From Paenibacillus swuensis (GTDB lineage Bacteria; Bacillota; Bacilli; Paenibacillales; DY6), in assembly GCF_001644605.1 (NCBI RefSeq), contig NZ_CP011388.1, forward strand, positions 1,264,501 to 1,328,500: 64,000 nt of DNA, in the 5' to 3' direction. The first letter of the stretch is position 1, and the number at the start of each line of letters is the position of its first letter. The position numbers and the translations under genes were made by a program. The notes below the pieces were generated by a model. The model did no database searches and was not told the DNA's origin. It saw nothing but the letters and a program-made list of their open reading frames with translations. Shown one piece after another: positions 19,336 to 28,265 of this stretch.

Positions 19336-19380
19336 AAAAAAAGCCTGGACTCGTCGGTTCCCCGACTTGTCCAGGCTTTA
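19336..19380. terminator. Bidirectional intrinsic terminator between FAD oxidoreductase and phosphonate operon
   Basis: AAAGCCTGGAC and GTCCAGGCTTT form an 11-bp stem around a loop that itself can pair (CGGttccCCG). It has A-runs on the left (AAAAAAA) and TTTATATT on the right, so it can terminate from both sides. It lies between the convergent stops at 19317 and 19383 and ends the phn operon. Confidence 0.85.
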
Positions 19381-19382
19381 TA

Positions 19383-21704
19383 TTATGGTTGTACGACATT
19401 CAGATCCAAGCTGAATTGGTTACGTTCCCGGAACAGCTTGTTCTTCTCCGTGGAGTACCAGTTAACGTCCACTTTATTGCTATCCTTGTGGAAGGTTAAC
19501 ATCATTAACATACCCAATCCCCCGTTCAGGTCCATGCCCTGGGCATCCGCCAGCATCTGATGAACCCGGTTGCCGTGCACCCCTGTATCTACTCGCTTCG
19601 CAATATCCGGGTAGCCAATATGGCCGGATACGACAAGAACGACATTCTTATGACGACTGGCCACGTCATTCCAGATTTCATCGGCATTTTTCGCATCGCT
19701 GATATATTTGGATGAGGTCGCGGGCGTGTTCGCATTCGACTGCTCACCGTTCCAGTACAAGTACGAATGTGTAGTGATAATGACATTCTTGTCCGGATTC
19801 GCGGCAATCTTCTCATTCATCCATCGCAAGATGTCGGCCGTCGGTGCGAACGCGATACTGAATATCATATACTTCTTCGAGCCTGCAGTAACGTAGTAGT
19901 AAACGTTGTCCATATATCCCATTTTATAGGCGCCGCCGAAATAGGAAAGCTGCGAAAACTTGTCATACGGGAAATACTTATTATAGTTAATGGTTTCTCT
20001 GGTTAAGGACATGCGCATATCATGATTGCCCGGCATCATCATGTAGGGGACAACGCCGTCCAGAGTGTTCATGGCGTTCTGGGCAACCTGCCACTGCGTT
20101 GTACTGGTGTGTGTATCTACAATGTCCCCCAGACTCATAACTGCCTGAATGTTATATTCCTGCTTGTTCGCTTTAATCCAATTCGTCAGGTTGTAGAACG
20201 CGTTTGGATATGTCGATGCAAGGAATTGGGTATCCGGCAGGAAAACCAGACTGTGATCCCCCTTGGCTATGTTCGGTTCAATCCAATCCGCGAAGGCAGT
20301 TATGTCATTGCTATGGGACGACTTGTCCGCATAAATGCCGTTCACTGGCGCATCGAATTTCCAGCTGCCAAGGAGTCCAGCCGGGTTTACAGGTTCCGTC
20401 TGCAGGTGTGCCGCAATTTCATCCTTGCTCCGGACGGTGGACCAGACACGCACATCCGCAATGCCGCCCTTGAAGTATTGCGTATTGTTCGCACGATAAT
20501 CGCCGCCGATCTTCAACGCTTGGGCAGGAATTTCCGGCTGAAAATCCGCATTCATCCGAACAGACATCAGCTCCCCGTCCAGATAACAACGAATTTCATT
20601 GGCCGCATCATCAAACGCGAGAGCTACATGCATCCATCGATCTTGCCGCAGATCCACGCCGGTGAAGACCATATCCTGAACGACACCCGACTTCTTCCAG
20701 TACAACCTTGGTTCCCCATTCGCTGTTACCTCGAAATTCACAAAGGCCATATCATAGTTGTAATAACCCATGTCCATGAAGTTGCCCGCAATAACGCCGC
20801 CGCGATTCCCTTGCAGATCCTTCGGTAGTTTCACGCGGGCTTCGAACGTTCTTGGCGTCGACGATAACCTGTTCTTCGCGGCATATTGCACCGAGCTGTT
20901 TGCGAAGCTCGCACCGGACGGCGGATACGGATACGTAAGGAAGCCCTCCGCTGTCAAGTTCACAGGATTCGTTCTTGCCATGTCCATGAACGTCGTTGTC
21001 GGGTATATGCCCGCGGCATCCGATAACCGCCACGCATGGGACAACCCCGATTCACTTCCTGTAATGTCCGCCGCAGCATACTGGGCAATCTCCGCTGGCG
21101 TACGCAGATCGTCCCATGTACGAATTTCGGCGATTTGTCCGTTCAGCCACATGGACTTCCGATAATCGGTTCCCACGAGCATCGGAAGCGTGGAAGGCGT
21201 CTGTTCAGGAGCAATGGTTGTATATCCCGTGCGTTCAAACACCTTGACACCGTTCTTGTAGAAGAGGATGGCCTTATTCGTAACATCGCGCACAACCGAC
21301 AGCAGCATCCATTCGTTGGTGGCGACATCCACACCGGTGACGTACAGATTCGGCATATTACGCTTCACACCTTGGGCGTCAACATACTCTTCCCAGTAAC
21401 GTAACCGGTTATCGGAGGTCAGTTCAAGCGACCAGCTGTTCTGAGTGCCGTCCTTATAGTTACCGATAATGATCTGCCGTGTGTTTACAGCCGGCTTGAG
21501 CTTTACCCATGCTTCCACTGTCGTTGGAATCTTCTCTATGGCCTTATTCATGACAGCATAGCGCGTAGGCTGGAAGGTGACACTTTGACGCTCGGCAGCC
21601 GCATCCGGTGCCCCCATACTGAACGTTGTGGCCATCATTCCAATCCCCATCACCATTACCATCATCCATACCGTAAATCTGCTTAGCCTTTTATAAACCA
21701 ACAT
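19383..21704 (-). CDS. Secreted LamG-LamG-metallophosphoesterase
   Basis: About 773 residues. The start at 21704 has GAGGAGGGA just upstream and gives a signal peptide (basic LVYKRLSRF, then a Met-rich hydrophobic run ending near DAAAE). Two concanavalin A-like LamG domains follow (about 40-225 and 255-450; each has a WMLLSVVRD / WMHVALAFDD core and an IAEIRTWDDLRT / IADVRVWSTVRS strand). A calcineurin-like phosphoesterase domain follows, with metal motifs PDTQ, GDIVD, GNHD, THSY and SGHIG. It lies 46 bases after phnE on the same strand, before the shared terminator. Predicted extracellular glycan-binding phosphoesterase. A phosphonate-ester or teichoic-acid substrate is inference. Confidence 0.87.
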   Translation of the reverse strand: MLVYKRLSRFTVWMMVMVMGIGMMATTFSMGAPDAAAERQSVTFQPTRYAVMNKAIEKIPTTVEAWVKLKPAVNTRQIIIGNYKDGTQNSWSLELTSDNRLRYWEEYVDAQGVKRNMPNLYVTGVDVATNEWMLLSVVRDVTNKAILFYKNGVKVFERTGYTTIAPEQTPSTLPMLVGTDYRKSMWLNGQIAEIRTWDDLRTPAEIAQYAAADITGSESGLSHAWRLSDAAGIYPTTTFMDMARTNPVNLTAEGFLTYPYPPSGASFANSSVQYAAKNRLSSTPRTFEARVKLPKDLQGNRGGVIAGNFMDMGYYNYDMAFVNFEVTANGEPRLYWKKSGVVQDMVFTGVDLRQDRWMHVALAFDDAANEIRCYLDGELMSVRMNADFQPEIPAQALKIGGDYRANNTQYFKGGIADVRVWSTVRSKDEIAAHLQTEPVNPAGLLGSWKFDAPVNGIYADKSSHSNDITAFADWIEPNIAKGDHSLVFLPDTQFLASTYPNAFYNLTNWIKANKQEYNIQAVMSLGDIVDTHTSTTQWQVAQNAMNTLDGVVPYMMMPGNHDMRMSLTRETINYNKYFPYDKFSQLSYFGGAYKMGYMDNVYYYVTAGSKKYMIFSIAFAPTADILRWMNEKIAANPDKNVIITTHSYLYWNGEQSNANTPATSSKYISDAKNADEIWNDVASRHKNVVLVVSGHIGYPDIAKRVDTGVHGNRVHQMLADAQGMDLNGGLGMLMMLTFHKDSNKVDVNWYSTEKNKLFRERNQFSLDLNVVQP

Positions 21705-21750: not shown

Positions 21751-22575
21751 TCACTCGTGAGCTCTCATCTTCTTCTTAATTCGTCCAGCCAGCAGCTCAA
21801 GCAGAATTGCAAAAGCCAAAATGAGATACGTAATGGCGCCAATCTCCCTCACATCGTAGTAGTAGGCGCTTGCCATGAACAGGTCGTAACCGATGCCTCC
21901 CGCCCCTGCCGCAGCGCCCATCGCTAAGGCAACGGCGAAGTTGATTTCGAACCGCATGAAGGTCCATGATATTAAATACGTAATTGATGAAGGCAGCACC
22001 GCTTGAAACACAATCTGGAGCCAATTTGCTCCGCTCGCCTTCAGCGGTTCAATTCCGTCCTGCCCCAGTTCTTCGAAGGCTTCGGAATAAGCCTTGACGA
22101 GATAGCTGATGGAGTGGAACGTCATGCCGATGACGGCGGCTACACTTCCGAGCCCGGCAGCAATCGCGAAGATCAACACCCACAACACCGTAGGTACGGC
22201 CCGAATGAATGCGACGACCGCCTTCACCGCGACAGACACCTTGGCATTCGACAAGTTGCTCGCAGCCAACAGCCCAAGGATCAGGGCGAACAGAGCGCCG
22301 AGCATCGTAGTTAAGAACGCAAGCCCCGCCGTAATCATCAATTGTCCTAAGGCGTCCGTGAACGTAAGGTGGCTGAATCGAGGCTGGAGGAACATCGTCT
22401 TCAGGATATCCGCGGTCTTCACAACGGCAGGAATCACTTCAATATCCTTATAATTGAATGTTGCAAAAGCCAACACCGTTAACCCAGCCCAAGCCAGTAA
22501 TGTGAGCCGGATGATCATCGCTTGCTTGTTATACGGCGGCTTCAAGGTTTCTAACCCGCGATCTTGAAGTTTCAT
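21751..22575 (-). CDS. phnE: Phosphonate ABC transporter permease (second PhnE)
   Basis: A 274-residue membrane protein with about six helices. The permease loop reads EAFEELGQDGIEPLKASGANWLQIVFQAVLPSSI, followed by the PhnE-type MRFEINFAVALAMGAAAGAGGIGYDL. AAGGTGATC precedes the ATG, 1 base after the upstream permease stop. With the first PhnE-like protein it probably forms a heterodimeric channel, an arrangement also known for other phn loci with two phnE genes. Confidence 0.9.
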   Translation of the reverse strand: MKLQDRGLETLKPPYNKQAMIIRLTLLAWAGLTVLAFATFNYKDIEVIPAVVKTADILKTMFLQPRFSHLTFTDALGQLMITAGLAFLTTMLGALFALILGLLAASNLSNAKVSVAVKAVVAFIRAVPTVLWVLIFAIAAGLGSVAAVIGMTFHSISYLVKAYSEAFEELGQDGIEPLKASGANWLQIVFQAVLPSSITYLISWTFMRFEINFAVALAMGAAAGAGGIGYDLFMASAYYYDVREIGAITYLILAFAILLELLAGRIKKKMRAHE

Positions 22576-22576
22576 A

Positions 22577-23362
22577 TTACATGATCACCTTTCGGATGTA
22601 GTTAGAAACCGTTTCAAATACCGCAATGGTGAGGACAAGGGCGATGACGATCAATGAGGCAGAATGAAAATCCAGACTTTTGTAATACAAGCTGAATAGA
22701 AATCCAATCCCCGTACCTGTGAGAATACCGATTAATGTCGCTTGACGGATATTGGTTTCCATCATAAACAGCACCCAACTGATGAGCTGCGGAATACAGG
22801 ATGGGATGACCGATTGAGCCATGATGGTGAGATAGCCGGCTCCCGTTGATTTCAATGCTTCAACTGAGCTGTTACTCATTTCATCGATCGTCTCGATAAA
22901 CGCGCGGGTGAGGAACCCGAAGGACCCGAAGAATAGCGCCAGGTACCCCGTCAACACGTTCTGACCGAATGAAATCAGCAGAATCATGGACCACGCAGCG
23001 ACATCAATGTTCCGGAAGACGGTTGCAACGGATCGGCTGATCACACTGAAGATCCCGCCACGTCCTGTCGTAATGGAGCCAGCCATCGCGAAGATCAGGG
23101 CGAATAAAGCTGCAACGGTTGTGGCTGCGACGGATACGAGAATAGTCTCGATCAAGCTGTCGATAATGTCTGGGAGCCGCTTCATCGCCTTGGCATCGGG
23201 GTAGAAATGGTCGAACACCCAGATCGCCGCTTGAGGAATAGATGTAAACCCTGTGACCACATCGAATTCTGTAATGACAATAGCAGCCGCCGTCATGACA
23301 AGCAGCAAGAGACAATAGAACAGCGTCCTCATCCGTTTACGTGCAAAATAATGATCAGACAT
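22577..23362 (-). CDS. phnE: Phosphonate ABC transporter permease (first PhnE)
   Basis: About 261 residues, six membrane helices. The frame is open upstream to 23476, but the ATG at 23362 (MSDHYFARKRMRTLF) overlaps the phnC stop codon by 8 bases and gives the normal PhnE N-terminus; the longer version has 38 Arg/Ser-rich residues unlike the family. Loop motif EALKSTGAGYLTIMAQSVIPSCIPQLISW and the following MMETNIRQATLIGILTGTGIG are typical. Confidence 0.9.
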   Translation of the reverse strand: MSDHYFARKRMRTLFYCLLLLVMTAAAIVITEFDVVTGFTSIPQAAIWVFDHFYPDAKAMKRLPDIIDSLIETILVSVAATTVAALFALIFAMAGSITTGRGGIFSVISRSVATVFRNIDVAAWSMILLISFGQNVLTGYLALFFGSFGFLTRAFIETIDEMSNSSVEALKSTGAGYLTIMAQSVIPSCIPQLISWVLFMMETNIRQATLIGILTGTGIGFLFSLYYKSLDFHSASLIVIALVLTIAVFETVSNYIRKVIM

Positions 23363-24161
23363 GAACAACCTCCCGCTCCCGCTTCGACTCAAGCTCTTCC
23401 TGGAGCTGATTCCACGCCGACCCGTAGATTGCGGACAATTGCGCCGGATCCTGAATCCCTTGAGGCGGACCGTCATACACGATACTGCCCTTATTCACAC
23501 CGAGAATCCGGTCTGAATACTTCAACGCCACATCCACCTGGTGCAAGTTGACGATAACGGTAATGCCCATCGTCGTACTAATATGGCGCAGATGTTCCAT
23601 AATAACCCTGGAGGCGTTCGGGTCCAAGGAAGCAATCGGTTCATCGCACAGCAGTATTCTCGGATTCTGTACAAGCGCGCGAGCAATGCCAACCCGCTGT
23701 TTCTGTCCGCCGCTCAGTTGATCACAACGCTTAAAGACCTGATCTTCCAGTCCAAGTCTCTTTAACGTATCGAAGGCTTGATGCTTCTCTTCGCTCGTAT
23801 ACAGCCCCAGAACCCCTTGCAGGGTCGACTTGTAACCAAGGCGTCCATGCAGAACATTATCGATCACCGTTAACCGGTCAACCAGGTTATAATGCTGGAA
23901 TACCATACCCATCTGTGTTCGCAGGTGCTTTAACTCGCGTTTATTGAATTTCAGGATGTTCGTGCCGTTAAATATAATCTCGCCGCTGCTCGCATCAATC
24001 ATCCGATTGATACAACGAAGCAGTGTTGACTTACCGGCCCCGGAGGGACCGATAATCGACACAAACTCTCCTTCATGAACTTGAAACTCAATATCGGTTA
24101 ATGCTCTTGGGTCCTTGCCATACTGCTTGGACACCTGTCTGAATTCCAATAACGTTGTCAT
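23355..24161 (-). CDS. phnC: Phosphonate ABC transporter ATPase PhnC
   Basis: A 268-residue ABC ATPase. Walker A is GPSGAGKST, the signature LSGGQKQRVGIARAL, Walker B ILLCDEPIASLD, and the H-loop His lies in VNLHQVD. The segment MIDASSGEIIFNGTNI after Walker A is typical of PhnC. It lies between phnD and two phnE genes, with AAGGGAGC before the ATG. Confidence 0.95.
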   Translation of the reverse strand: MTTLLEFRQVSKQYGKDPRALTDIEFQVHEGEFVSIIGPSGAGKSTLLRCINRMIDASSGEIIFNGTNILKFNKRELKHLRTQMGMVFQHYNLVDRLTVIDNVLHGRLGYKSTLQGVLGLYTSEEKHQAFDTLKRLGLEDQVFKRCDQLSGGQKQRVGIARALVQNPRILLCDEPIASLDPNASRVIMEHLRHISTTMGITVIVNLHQVDVALKYSDRILGVNKGSIVYDGPPQGIQDPAQLSAIYGSAWNQLQEELESKREREVVHV

Positions 24162-24194: not shown

Positions 24195-25256
24195 TTATTC
24201 CGATAGCTCCCGAATGGGATTAAAGAAACTGTCTTCCACAGTCAGGAATTGTTCGTTGCCGCTCTTCTGCTTGAACAGGCCTTTCTCTTCCGAGTCTTTC
24301 GCCAGGAAAATCTTCGAATTGTTCTTGACCTCATCCGATGTGAACGAATCCTTCAGCTTCTGAATATCCTCTTGATTTACGGTCCCTGCATTAATGACGA
24401 AGGGCTGGTTCAATACCGGTGTAGCCGAAATAACGGTAAACTCCTTGCCTTCCAAAGTGTTGAAAGGTTCAGCGGCTCCCTGTTTCACCTTATACACCGC
24501 CCCTGCCGTGTTCTCTTCCCCTGCGCTTAATTCCACATAGTTCGTGACACATGTATCGCAGAATGCCGCTATATCCGCCTTATCATTTAGCAGATTGACA
24601 GCAGAACCTTGGTGGGAACCTCCGTACAGCACATCGCTGAAGAATTTATCCTCGCCGCCAATCGTAAGATCATCCACTGTCAGGGACTTGTACTTGTCCA
24701 TCTGGGAGAAATGCTTGATGATTGCTGCTGAAGGCACTTTAAATCCGGACGTCGAGGAATTTGTGACGAAGGAGAACTTTTGGCCAACAATGGAATCGAT
24801 GGAATAGCCGTCCCCGCTCTTGTAACTCTCTTCCTCGCCCTTGCGCACGCTTAACCAGCTGTAATAGGCCGCATCGTCAACGGTCCCTGATTCCCCGCTT
24901 GCTATAACCAGAGGCTGCACATCCTTATTCTTGGCTCTCGCTTCGACATACCCTTGCGCTCCCATGTAAGCGATATCCGCGCTCCCGTTCGCAATCGCTT
25001 CAATCGCGATGGTGTAATCCGTCGTTGTCTTGTGTTCCACTTTCTTGCCTGTTGCCGCGGCAATCACTTTCCCGATCTCTTCACGGGCACCTTCCATCTC
25101 CGCACCGGATTCATTCGGGTACCAGGCCACGGTTATCGTATCTTTCGTCTGCACTTCTGCGGATGCCTTCTCCGTATTATTGGCTTGTTTGCCGCAACCC
25201 GCTGTTACTACCATGAGTGATAATGCGATAAGTCCAACCATTTTGTTCATATTCAA
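24195..25256 (-). CDS. phnD: Phosphonate-binding lipoprotein PhnD
   Basis: A 353-residue solute-binding protein. The lipobox VVTAGC lies about 20 residues in. The PhnD signature is visible as AWYPNESGAEMEGAREEIGKVI, then GSADIAYMGAQGYVEA and FVTNSSTSGFKVPSAAI. The TTG at 25256 (AGGGGG 6 bases upstream) or the ATG two codons later could be the start. It binds organophosphonate outside the membrane for PhnCE. Which phosphonate it binds cannot be told; the enzymes beside it point to C2 compounds. Confidence 0.93.
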   Translation of the reverse strand: MNMNKMVGLIALSLMVVTAGCGKQANNTEKASAEVQTKDTITVAWYPNESGAEMEGAREEIGKVIAAATGKKVEHKTTTDYTIAIEAIANGSADIAYMGAQGYVEARAKNKDVQPLVIASGESGTVDDAAYYSWLSVRKGEEESYKSGDGYSIDSIVGQKFSFVTNSSTSGFKVPSAAIIKHFSQMDKYKSLTVDDLTIGGEDKFFSDVLYGGSHQGSAVNLLNDKADIAAFCDTCVTNYVELSAGEENTAGAVYKVKQGAAEPFNTLEGKEFTVISATPVLNQPFVINAGTVNQEDIQKLKDSFTSDEVKNNSKIFLAKDSEEKGLFKQKSGNEQFLTVEDSFFNPIRELSE

Positions 25257-25281: not shown

Positions 25282-26421
25282 TTACATCAACGAAACTAAC
25301 ATTTGTTCGAGCTGTTCAGCTGTAATTTCAACAGGATTATTGTCCATTCTTCCCTTGGTGTACGAGAGCGACACCACCTTGCGAATTCCTTCATCCGTAA
25401 CCCCGTAGGAGCCTAACTGACCTGGTAACCCGTATGTTTCATATATTCTTTTGACCCAAAGACCGACCTCATCCACATCCGCAGCGCCATACGCGCTTAG
25501 CAGCTTGTCCGGTTCTATTAACGCGTCATAGTTATGTCTCATCACCGAAGCCAACGTCATGCTGGCGGCAATGCCGTGATCGATACCGTACAGCATCGTG
25601 AGCGGATACGAAATGGAATGACAAGCGGTCGTTCTCGTATTGCTGAAAGCTAACCCCGCCAGCACACTAGCTAAGGACAATTGCTCTCGTAACGCGAGCT
25701 GATCCGGCTGCTCCAGTAGTAAGGGGAGCGTGATCCGAATTCTCTCGATGGCTTGCAACGCGTATACACGGGTAATCGGGTTCGTATGGATGGACCAGTA
25801 CGCCTCGGTCGCATGGCACATGGCATCCAGCGCTGTAGCAATACTTAATCGCAGCGGCATCGTAACGGTCAGTTCCGGCAGAATCAACGCATCGCTTGCG
25901 TACAATCTTGCATCAGAGACCGAATATTTGCTGTTGCATTCCTCATCCCACACCGTTGCCCAGCAGGTGACCTCAGAGCCCGTACCCGATGTCGTGGGGA
26001 TACCGATCCACGGTGTATATGGATACTCTTCCCGATATCGTTCACTTGCGATGGCCTCCCTGACCTCAGCAACCGAATGAACCTTCATCCGTTGCAGCGC
26101 CGACAGAACTTTGGCTACATCCATTACGCTGCCGCCGCCTATGGCCACGATGAGTTGGTAGTCGAACGATGCGACCTGTCCCTTCAAGTTGTAGATATCG
26201 GCAACATTGGGATTGTAGAGAGTAACTTCCAGCTGTAAAATTTCTTTGTGACCCAGCATGTCCAGCACGGGCTGCAAGATGCCGTTCTTTTCCACTTCAC
26301 CGCCTCGCGTAAGTATCAATACACGACTTACATGGGCATAACTTTTCTGCAGCTTCTCTGCAAAACTTGCCGCGGAGGCTGCCCCGAAGGAGATGGCTAC
26401 CGGATTATGGTATTGGTTCAT
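25282..26421 (-). CDS. Iron-containing alcohol dehydrogenase in phosphonate operon
   Basis: A 379-residue group III Fe-ADH. NAD site IAIGGGSVMDVAKVL (reads VAIGGGS). Metal ligands are in DAMCHATEAYWS and HSISYPLTMLYGIDHG. Its start codon overlaps the phnX stop (ATGA), so the two are translationally coupled. Related enzymes include phosphonoacetaldehyde reductases. With phnX and without phnW, the likely reaction is 2-hydroxyethylphosphonate to phosphonoacetaldehyde, the alcohol oxidation direction; reducing the acetaldehyde released by PhnX is the alternative. Both are inference. Confidence 0.85.
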   Translation of the reverse strand: MNQYHNPVAISFGAASAASFAEKLQKSYAHVSRVLILTRGGEVEKNGILQPVLDMLGHKEILQLEVTLYNPNVADIYNLKGQVASFDYQLIVAIGGGSVMDVAKVLSALQRMKVHSVAEVREAIASERYREEYPYTPWIGIPTTSGTGSEVTCWATVWDEECNSKYSVSDARLYASDALILPELTVTMPLRLSIATALDAMCHATEAYWSIHTNPITRVYALQAIERIRITLPLLLEQPDQLALREQLSLASVLAGLAFSNTRTTACHSISYPLTMLYGIDHGIAASMTLASVMRHNYDALIEPDKLLSAYGAADVDEVGLWVKRIYETYGLPGQLGSYGVTDEGIRKVVSLSYTKGRMDNNPVEITAEQLEQMLVSLM

Positions 26422-27230
26422 GAAGTTGTACGCTCCAGTTTCGTTCGTTCAATCTCATCAATAACCGAGGGAAGCAAATGGATGGAGCCAATCACATAGT
26501 CTGCTCCCGCTTCCTCGAATGTTCTTCTGGCTTGATTCAGGCGTACCGCAAGTTCATCCTCAGGCAGGCTATACACCTCCTCCTCGGTTAGACCCAGCTC
26601 GCTGCTTCCACGAATTACCGCCACCGTCCATACGCCCGCATTCTTTCCTTCAAGAACATCGGACACTGTATCTCCCACCTTAATGACCGCACTCGGCGGG
26701 AAGATACCCAGTTCGTTCAAGTTCTGAAATATCATGTAGGGGTACGGACGGCCCGCTTTGACTTGATCCGAGGCAATCCAGTAATCGGGTGAATAGCCTT
26801 TCCGCTTAGCTTCAGGGACAATGGTCTCCATCATGCCGGACGTATAACCGGTTGTAGAACCTATTGCGATTCCTGCTTCTCGCAGTTGATTCACCGTCTC
26901 CAAAGCGCCGGGGATCGGGTCCGTGTACGTTTGAAGGGATTCCATGAGGATGGTCTCGAATCGGACATAGAGACGATCCACATCTTCCTTTACCGCTTCC
27001 TTGCCATACCTGTCTGCCCAGGCAACCTTGATTCTTTCCATCTGAAGAATCGCTTCAATGTGATCCCATTTCAGCATGCCCATGGGAATTCTCGCTTCCC
27101 GAGTTGTGATTCGTACACCCGCCTCCTCGAATACTTGAATAAATGCATGCATAGGTGCAAAACAACCGTAATCAATAACGGTTCCTGCCCAATCCAAAAT
27201 TACCGCCTTAATACGCTCTTGTTGCGTCAT
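26418..27230 (-). CDS. phnX: Phosphonoacetaldehyde hydrolase (phosphonatase)
   Basis: A 270-residue HAD enzyme. The nucleophile D13 lies in ILDWAGTVIDYG, and the Schiff-base lysine K54 in MGMLKWDHI, as in characterised phosphonatases. STTGYTSGMMETIVP and VKVGDTVSDVLEGKNAG supply motifs II and IV. It cleaves the C-P bond of phosphonoacetaldehyde to acetaldehyde and phosphate. ATG 27230 is chosen (AGGA upstream, normal N-terminus); the frame is open to 27296 but that would cross the promoter. First gene of the phn operon. Confidence 0.95.
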   Translation of the reverse strand: MTQQERIKAVILDWAGTVIDYGCFAPMHAFIQVFEEAGVRITTREARIPMGMLKWDHIEAILQMERIKVAWADRYGKEAVKEDVDRLYVRFETILMESLQTYTDPIPGALETVNQLREAGIAIGSTTGYTSGMMETIVPEAKRKGYSPDYWIASDQVKAGRPYPYMIFQNLNELGIFPPSAVIKVGDTVSDVLEGKNAGVWTVAVIRGSSELGLTEEEVYSLPEDELAVRLNQARRTFEEAGADYVIGSIHLLPSVIDEIERTKLERTTS

Positions 27231-27267: not shown

Positions 27268-27296
27268 ATTATAGAACGGAAATAGTGGTTGATCAA
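27268..27296 (-). promoter_or_regulatory. Sigma-A promoter of the phnX operon
   Basis: On the minus strand TTGATC (27291-27296) and TATAAT (27268-27273) are 17 bases apart, 38 bases upstream of the phnX start. It lies downstream of the DeoR gene terminator, so the phn operon has its own promoter. No clear operator was seen beyond AT-rich sequence just upstream. Confidence 0.75.
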
Positions 27297-27369
27297 TGCT
27301 TTTTGCGTTATTTTACTTATTCTTAATAATAATATACTGTTATATGCTTTTATTTACATCCAGAAAACA

Positions 27370-27402
27370 TAAAAAAAACGCAAGCTACATTCGGCTTGCG
27401 TT
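27370..27402 (-). terminator. Intrinsic terminator overlapping the deoR-type gene's stop codon
   Basis: AACGCAAGC and GCTTGCGTT form a 9-bp stem with an 8-base loop, followed on the minus strand by eight Ts. The upstream arm encodes the last codons of the DeoR-family gene, and the stop codon begins at the stem-loop boundary. It separates that gene from the phnX promoter. Confidence 0.85.
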
Positions 27403-28161
27403 AATAATGGAGATATTCTGTTGTTCGTAGAGGACTTGCAGCTCCTCATCCATGTAGGAGTCCGTTATAACCGCATCGATCTGATTCAATCCGCAAATGT
27501 TCAGGTACGATACCGTTTCGAATTTACTTGAATCCGCAACGACGATCTTCTGTTTAGCGCTCTTCAGCATCGCGTTGATGACTCCCGCTTCCCCCTGGCG
27601 GAAATCCGTTAGCCCCTTCTCGAGCGATATGGCATTAATACTGATAAAAGTAAGGTCACTGTTGAAGCTCATGATTTCTTCCTCAATCGAGCGTCCATAC
27701 AGAGAGAATTCCTCATGATTGAGGTAGCCTCCCGGAATAATGACGGTGAAGCCTGGTTTACTGGTCAGAATATCGGCGATACGCAGAGAATTCGTAATCA
27801 CGGTAAGCTTATCGAAGCGAGCCGCAAGGTGCTTGGCAACCTCGATATTCGTCGTACCGGCATTGAGGGATACCGCTTGATACTCTTGCACGAGCTCCAC
27901 AGCATACTTCGCCAGTTCCTGCTTCTTCTCGTTCTGCGTGAGCTTGCGTTTGAAGAATGCCTGATTCGTCGAAATCTCCTCACTCTTGGTAATAGCCCCA
28001 CCGTGAACACGCTGCAGCTTGTCCTCACGTTCCAGCCGTTCCAGATCCCTGCGGACCGTGTCCAGCGATACTTGGAGTAATGATTTTAATTCCACAACCG
28101 TAACTTGCCTCTTCGATTCCAATTCAAGCAGTATTAATCGATGCCTCTCCTGTGCAAGCAT
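27385..28161 (-). CDS. DeoR-family transcriptional regulator
   Basis: About 258 residues. The N-terminal helix-turn-helix is LAQERHRLILLELESKRQVTVVELKSLLQVSLDTVRRDLERLE, and the sensor domain carries the DeoR motif LNAGTTNIEVAKHL and later IVVADSSKF. ATG 28161 has GGAGGAGAA upstream; the frame is open to 28197. DeoR sensors usually bind phosphorylated sugars. Here the gene precedes the phn operon on the same strand, so control of phosphonate use is likely but not shown. Confidence 0.9.
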   Translation of the reverse strand: MLAQERHRLILLELESKRQVTVVELKSLLQVSLDTVRRDLERLEREDKLQRVHGGAITKSEEISTNQAFFKRKLTQNEKKQELAKYAVELVQEYQAVSLNAGTTNIEVAKHLAARFDKLTVITNSLRIADILTSKPGFTVIIPGGYLNHEEFSLYGRSIEEEIMSFNSDLTFISINAISLEKGLTDFRQGEAGVINAMLKSAKQKIVVADSSKFETVSYLNICGLNQIDAVITDSYMDEELQVLYEQQNISIINASRM

Positions 28162-28265
28162 TACCGTTCTCCTCCGTGTTTTTGCGTGAATGTGCATGCT
28201 TTATTTGCTTATCGTATCAAAAAAGCATGATTCAGTAAACAACAGATGGTTTGTTGGATGGGGAC

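Follow-up and report, generated by a model that had tools for sequence, protein, structure and literature searches.

The window, a 64,000-nucleotide stretch of the Paenibacillus swuensis genome (contig NZ_CP011388.1), carries on its minus strand an operon with the gene order deoR-phnX-FeADH-phnD-phnC-phnE1-phnE2-LamG2MPE. The final gene encodes a protein with two laminin G (LamG) domains and a metallophosphoesterase (MPE) domain, here called LamG2MPE, while FeADH denotes an iron-containing alcohol dehydrogenase. The features of the locus, in window coordinates, are as follows.

19336..19379, minus strand: intrinsic terminator hairpin and T run behind the LamG2MPE stop codon (-30.3 kcal/mol, z -8.5)
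19383..21704, minus strand: LamG2MPE gene, 773 aa, final gene of the operon (ORF and Pfam)
19617..20246, minus strand: MPE domain, residues 487-696 (Pfam, motif positions, alignment, GpdQ match with Z 21.3)
20412..20897, minus strand: LamG domain 2 (LamG2), residues 270-431 (Pfam; structural match to 4dqa, Z 20.9)
21021..21572, minus strand: LamG domain 1 (LamG1) (alignment)
21594..21704, minus strand: putative signal peptide region, about residues 1-37, read from sequence only
21751..22575, minus strand: phnE2 permease (TIGR01097, 184 bits; cut-off 216.7 not reached)
22577..23476, minus strand: phnE1 permease (TIGR01097, 193 bits; cut-off 216.7 not reached), true start probably near 23362
23355..24161, minus strand: phnC ATPase (TIGR02315, 345.5 bits, over the cut-off of 266.1)
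24195..25256, minus strand: phnD-like binding protein (PF12974, 8.7e-36)
25282..26421, minus strand: FeADH, proposed 2-hydroxyethylphosphonate dehydrogenase (Fe-ADH; TIGR03405)
26418..27230, minus strand: phnX phosphonoacetaldehyde hydrolase, ORF listed from 27296 (TIGR01422, 362 bits; cut-off 220 passed)
27268..27296, minus strand: phnX promoter, TTGATC, 17 nt, TATAAT (conserved in the alignment of upstream regions)
27331..27352, minus strand: tandem operator common to the regulon (26.3 bits, matrix built without G125)
27385..28197, minus strand: DeoR-family regulator, first gene (assigned from sequence)

The start codon of LamG2MPE is the ATG behind GAGGAGGG, from which the 773 residues are counted. 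Inspected by eye, the N-terminus resembles a signal peptide: a Lys/Arg n-region is followed by a hydrophobic core and by an AAA-type cleavage site. Pfam assigns two Laminin_G_3 stretches (PF13385; 4.8e-37, 127.9 bits, gathering score passed) and a Metallophos domain (PF00149; 3.5e-13, 50.8 bits against a gathering score of 21.5), in line with the two LamG domains and the metallophosphoesterase proposed in an earlier sequence-only reading; a catalytic domain of the AP superfamily gave no Pfam match. LamG1 is 58-64% identical across four relatives, among them a fusion protein of P. aceris. In the structure model of LamG2MPE (pLDDT 79.5, pTM 0.56), LamG2 matches 4dqa, a putative carbohydrate-binding protein of Bacteroides ovatus (Z 20.9). 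Glycan binding by the Laminin_G_3 domains would follow from the fold, and membership of the LamG family is no proof of it.

Between the phnE2 stop and the LamG2MPE start lie 46 nt, in which a promoter and terminator scan found no promoter- or terminator-like site on the minus strand; the nearest minus-strand promoter-like match upstream ends at 23599, within coding sequence. Thus, the shared strand, the 46-base spacing and the terminator common with the phn genes, on which the sequence-only reading had built, are confirmed by the ORFs, the signal scan and the hairpin, and the separate promoter that it had named as counter-evidence is not seen in this genome. Its term "phosphonate operon" is correct, although incomplete, as phnD, FeADH, phnX and the DeoR gene also lie upstream. 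The hairpin additionally faces a convergent oxidoreductase gene and may therefore terminate both genes. While PhnC and PhnX exceed their curated cut-offs, PhnD, PhnE and FeADH stay below them, with phosphonate models nonetheless among the best matches: PhnD misses both equivalog cut-offs (TIGR03431 and TIGR01098; 88.7 versus 261.1 bits), and FeADH reaches 275.5 bits on TIGR03405 (phosphonate-associated Fe-ADH, PsrA) against a cut-off of 423.7, this still being the best model of the library. The DeoR neighbours are 81-85% identical in 6 of 12 other FeADH loci and 53-67% identical in three more.

Canonical calcineurin-like enzymes carry the metal ligands DxH, GDxxD, GNH, H and GHxH. The corresponding motifs of the MPE domain read D491TQ, GD527IVD, GN560HD, H646 and GH695IG. 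The ligand set is thus incomplete, with GDIVD, GNHD, H646 and GH695 present and two canonical ligands substituted (DTQ for DxH, GHIG for GHxH). Motif I reads D-x-Q in all 22 aligned relatives (DTQ in 21, DIQ in one). In view of the replaced ligands, the activity of the MPE domain is putative. According to the structural comparison of the model, the closest fold to the MPE domain is GpdQ (Z 21.3, rmsd 2.5, 221 residues), tied with Lmo2642 (Z 21.2) and with purple acid phosphatases and Rv0805 near, while a sequence search of solved structures with the MPE domain returned zero matches. GpdQ acts on phosphonate monoesters; a GpdQ-like fold in a model by itself says nothing on the function of the MPE domain.

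The same genome holds a second cluster about 0.5 Mb away, an aminoethylphosphonate (AEP) operon composed of phnS2-phnT2-phnU2-phnX-phnW and a DeoR gene, whose PhnX is 54% identical to that of the window. PhnW is absent from the window cluster, and the view that the window operon serves AEP alone is rejected, since PhnW is found in this other operon with its own PhnX. For comparison we took 79 regions, i.e. 78 phnX loci (window included; a sample of the above-cut-off matches in the order, not all of them) and one DeoR-FeADH locus without phnX (L059, genome G235; the pair lies at L059:4991-7267). Among the 78 loci the partner of phnX is PhnW in 66 and FeADH in 12, and no locus has both or neither. 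At E<=1e-60, 14 of the 392 genomes searched in the order have a FeADH match, and a class-level search found this genome alone (1 of 398). Because FeADH stands in for PhnW as the partner of PhnX, 2-hydroxyethylphosphonate (2-HEP) is suggested as the substrate, the simplest reading being that FeADH oxidises 2-HEP to phosphonoacetaldehyde. The catabolic genes hence suggest hydroxyethylphosphonate specifically, not phosphonates as a whole. The excerpted text of PMC9381506 describes PhpC, a phosphonoacetaldehyde reductase, as kin of Fe-alcohol dehydrogenases, and according to a section of PMC12366243 HEP oxidation would yield phosphonoacetaldehyde, PbfF having been tested and excluded for this oxidation.

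FeADH homologues are found in phosphonate biosynthesis, too: in a further genome of the same taxonomic order (G301, L062), one with 36% identity belongs to a biosynthetic cluster with genes for PEP mutase (PepM) and phosphonopyruvate decarboxylase (Ppd), adjoining N-acetylneuraminate synthase (NeuB) genes. This cluster is a possible maker of hydroxyethylphosphonate-decorated surface glycans.

Upstream of the FeADH-type phnX genes we find a tandem motif close to AAACAGCAwATAACAGCATATA, followed by a sigma-A-like promoter; the DeoR protein is assumed to be its binder. The upstream region of the unlinked LamG2MPE gene of genome G125 ranks first of 1242 against three of the four phnX promoters and third for the promoter of this genome, a ranking which disregards two members of the list of 1242, the phnX region of P. 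aceris and the gene itself. With an 11-site matrix, the G125 gene scores 28.2 bits, reached by none of 1237 control upstream regions, and the LamG gene of P. silvestris scores 19.1 bits, equalled only by the divergent gene of the same intergenic region; upstream of the G235 LamG gene this matrix gives nothing of note. When the matrix is built without G125, the two genes score 28.5 and 19.7 bits, and matches of at least 17 bits occur solely upstream of FeADH-type phnX genes and of these two LamG genes, a specificity that holds for the scanned stretches (187 sequences, 2.32 Mb with overlaps). At the same threshold the FeADH locus of G249 has no operator match. The operon-embedded LamG genes of this genome and P. 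aceris have no operator of their own, which fits the expected read-through. Gene order, lack of separating signals, operator sharing and the mutual exclusivity of PhnW and FeADH are computationally established, and the LamG2MPE gene very probably belongs to the FeADH-type phnX regulon, beyond chance neighbourhood.

A different motif, near ACAAATAAAAACAA, is repeated at AEP-type phn loci (L073:1266-1290, L071:6576, L117:10435, L129:11456) and in G125 also lies upstream of a large secreted metallophosphoesterase. It is perhaps the operator of the AEP-type DeoR.

We searched for LamG1 in 392 genomes of the order, scoring at most two candidates per genome. The matches listed come from this genome (G000), G125, G129 (Paenibacillus silvestris), G235 and G173 (P. 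aceris), and among them four of the five genomes also have FeADH. With kinship ignored, this overlap has p 5e-6 uncorrected, 1.5e-4 outside genus g27 and 0.21 within g27. P. silvestris has the LamG gene and the operator, yet no FeADH match at E<=1e-60, and the LamG2MPE gene of G235 shows neither operon linkage nor operator, its product carrying SLH anchors. MPE-domain relatives are found in 176 of the 392 genomes at E<=1e-15, most of them without a FeADH operon. A first scan of the genome contigs found no relatives, and a second one, based on the LamG1 alignment, yielded just P. aceris and P. silvestris.

Complete phnX-FeADH-phnDCEE operons, with deoR adjacent or not, occur in nine genomes (G000, G173, G213, G183, G105, G121, G196, G103, G125). 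The LamG gene follows phnE2 in two of them, G000 and P. aceris; the other seven lack it there, and three of the five LamG1 genes among the matches listed are unlinked to the operon. Adjacency to phnE2 as a general rule was accordingly rejected. The conserved synteny which the sequence-only reading had put forward thus recurs in P. aceris but is thin, and the link to phosphonate catabolism that it had drawn gains its support instead from the P. aceris operon context and from the operator at two unlinked copies. In P. aceris the operon and LamG1 (64%) are conserved, and a type I phosphodiesterase (NPP; PF01663, 1.5e-22) replaces the MPE domain; this catalytic domain has solved NPP relatives and belongs to the AP superfamily, with a fold unrelated to MPE. 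As LamG1 and position are kept and the catalyst is swapped, it can be argued that the shared task is hydrolysis of phosphodiesters or phosphonate esters on one polymer. The LamG1 tree is unresolved. In a tree of the concatenated operon proteins, rooted on G087, G000 diverges first and P. aceris second, ahead of the other operons, whose grouping is supported at 100/92, the branch adding P. aceris without G000 reaching only 87/80. It is possible that the operon originally ended in a LamG gene, which was subsequently lost or relocated.

On the same strand and within 6 kb, a phosphoesterase is present at 6 of 12 FeADH-type versus 5 of 66 PhnW-type loci (Fisher p 0.001); collapsing orthologous placements gives 5 of 11 versus 3 of 64 (p 0.001), and additionally omitting the window gives 4 of 10 versus 3 of 64 (p 0.005). 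The window had been chosen for LamG2MPE, and its omission weakens the neighbourhood statistics to p 0.005-0.02; a density estimate rested on five genomes, four of them already known to have such genes near phnX. The counts used a looser MPE pattern, as a stricter first pattern missed the enzyme of G087. They exclude a sulfatase-like match on the opposite strand of L077, 5.4 kb from phnX, and take the enzyme of the AEP locus of this genome from L073, since its catalytic domain lies outside L069. In 20 random control regions of 20 kb there were two metallophosphoesterases, both small. Large secreted metallophosphoesterases are encoded in the vicinity of phn genes in G105, G183, G249, G115, G117, G125 (AEP locus) and the AEP locus of this genome, in which 3 of 11 PF00149 matches fall in frames of at least 700 aa, two of these three flanking its two phnX operons. 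For G105, G183 and the AEP locus of this genome, an operonic arrangement was rejected, as strong terminators intervene and proximity only is left.

In G087 (L060:5895-13249), one strand holds DeoR-PhnX-FeADH, a binding-protein ABC transporter with no match to PhnD, PhnC or PhnE, and a metallophosphoesterase of 309 aa that shows no visible signal peptide, perhaps a locus for phosphonate-sugar import and intracellular cleavage.

Two other proteins were noted beside AEP operons. In this genome (C1:1836-1844 kb; L073:2826-8975), a 2049-aa protein combines NAGPA (phosphodiester glycosidase) and SLH domains with one of the purple acid phosphatase type; it lies on the same strand as the adjoining AEP operon, with a terminator between, and is another candidate for a surface enzyme that acts on phosphonate-bearing glycans. 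In G115 (L098:1-6225), a secreted protein of more than 2000 aa contains metallophosphoesterase, type I phosphodiesterase, LamG and F5/8C domains.

Taken together, LamG2MPE may represent the extracellular arm of a phosphonate-use regulon. Its LamG domains, judged by their fold, would anchor the secreted enzyme to a polymer on which the MPE domain would cut phosphonate ester (P-O-C) bonds, freeing a small phosphonate, most likely 2-HEP. By family assignment, PhnD-PhnC-PhnE1/E2 would import the freed phosphonate, FeADH, as suggested by the replacement of PhnW, would convert imported 2-HEP to phosphonoacetaldehyde, and PhnX, in its family function, would yield acetaldehyde and phosphate. A regulator, probably the operon's DeoR protein, would act on the tandem operator; LamG2MPE would be expressed here by read-through from the phnX promoter and in relatives elsewhere under its own operator copy. 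Release of esterified phosphonate by LamG2MPE, with 2-HEP as favoured product, is in our view the best explanation, to which we give an even chance. The sequence-only reading had proposed that the enzyme liberates phosphonate from glycans, exopolysaccharide or wall polymers for uptake by PhnD, an interpretation that is supported in part; the polymer may be a glycan, exopolysaccharide or teichoic acid. The wider proposal is more tentative, and we place it somewhat short of even: a dedicated phosphonoglycan-utilisation regulon with a putatively secreted, LamG-targeted phosphonate-ester phosphodiesterase, an importer, a 2-HEP dehydrogenase in place of PhnW, PhnX and one operator, in which two unrelated phosphodiesterase folds have replaced one another as catalytic domain while the targeting domain was kept.

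The main rival holds that LamG2MPE is a general phosphodiester scavenger acting on glycerophosphodiesters, teichoic acid or other phosphate diesters of wall polymers and organic matter, and that its co-expression reflects no more than a joint need for phosphonate use and phosphorus scavenging. This is a possibility to be taken seriously, if a rather doubtful one. The closest solved fold belongs to the glycerophosphodiesterase GpdQ, tied with Lmo2642 and near purple acid phosphatases, and MPE relatives are spread through genomes mostly devoid of the FeADH operon; however, the operator is the one carried by the FeADH-type phnX promoters and is seen nowhere else in the scanned stretches, and the LamG1 form is rare and overlaps the few FeADH genomes (four of five matches listed, with kinship ignored and p 0.21 within g27). 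That the gene simply hitch-hikes, having come to follow phnE2 by accident and being co-transcribed with no shared role, would agree with an adjacency in just two of nine complete operons. Such chance placement is very improbable, as it would not account for the operator upstream of unlinked genes, nor for the exchange of the catalytic domain in P. aceris with LamG1 retained.

A further alternative concerns the substrate. FeADH could reduce the acetaldehyde derived from PhnX or detoxify phosphonoacetaldehyde, with the operon serving another phosphonate, and both its score below the phosphonate Fe-ADH cut-off and its closest solved sequences, methanol and acetaldehyde/alcohol dehydrogenases, would be compatible with this. 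We regard it as unlikely, given that FeADH takes the place of PhnW at 12 of 12 loci. If it acted solely as an acetaldehyde reductase, nothing would supply PhnX with its substrate, and the enzyme could equally turn up beside PhnW, where it is seen at 0 of 66 loci.

A large part of the phosphonate in the environment is attached to polysaccharide through ester bonds. Esters of 2-HEP and methylphosphonate on marine polysaccharides feed bacteria, according to excerpts of PMC5649143, in which an alkaline-phosphatase-like releasing enzyme is merely postulated; a scheme in part of PMC8931226 assigns the release step to enzymes of the alkaline phosphatase family. In the open-access literature, with subscription journals mostly outside the search, we found no joint description of laminin G, metallophosphoesterase and phosphonate, nor any account of a phosphonate regulon that includes a LamG phosphodiesterase; one genome paper mentions an iron-containing alcohol dehydrogenase along with phosphonate and phnX. 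If the preferred reading of phosphonate-ester release is true, LamG2MPE is a genetically identified candidate for freeing phosphonates from polysaccharides before uptake, linked to the catabolic pathway through its operon, the operator and the domain swap, which makes the question bench-testable with cloned genes. If right, PhnX-FeADH would likewise be a candidate hydrolytic (non C-P lyase) route for 2-HEP.

Compared to phosphonate monoester hydrolase (PEH) and the PhoD-like alkaline phosphatases, enzymes proposed for marine phosphonoglycans, LamG2MPE has the same proposed task, hydrolysis of phosphonate-polysaccharide esters, but belongs to a different superfamily, its P. aceris counterpart being of the AP superfamily (NPP type). 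With GpdQ, Lmo2642 and purple acid phosphatases it shares the modelled fold (Z about 20-21) and the majority of the catalytic motifs, whereas its predicted secretion, its two LamG domains, DTQ for DxH, GHIG for GHxH and an identity of only 12-17% set it apart. PhpC-type phosphonoacetaldehyde reductases resemble the window FeADH in Fe-ADH class and in their location in phosphonate gene clusters, yet they run in the biosynthetic direction, while FeADH sits with PhnX in a catabolic operon. The PhnW-PhnX (phosphonatase) AEP operons, finally, have PhnX, an ABC importer and a DeoR-type regulator in common with the window operon, which differs in having an Fe-ADH in place of PhnW, a PhnCDE-type instead of a PhnSTU-type importer, and an additional, putatively secreted phosphoesterase.
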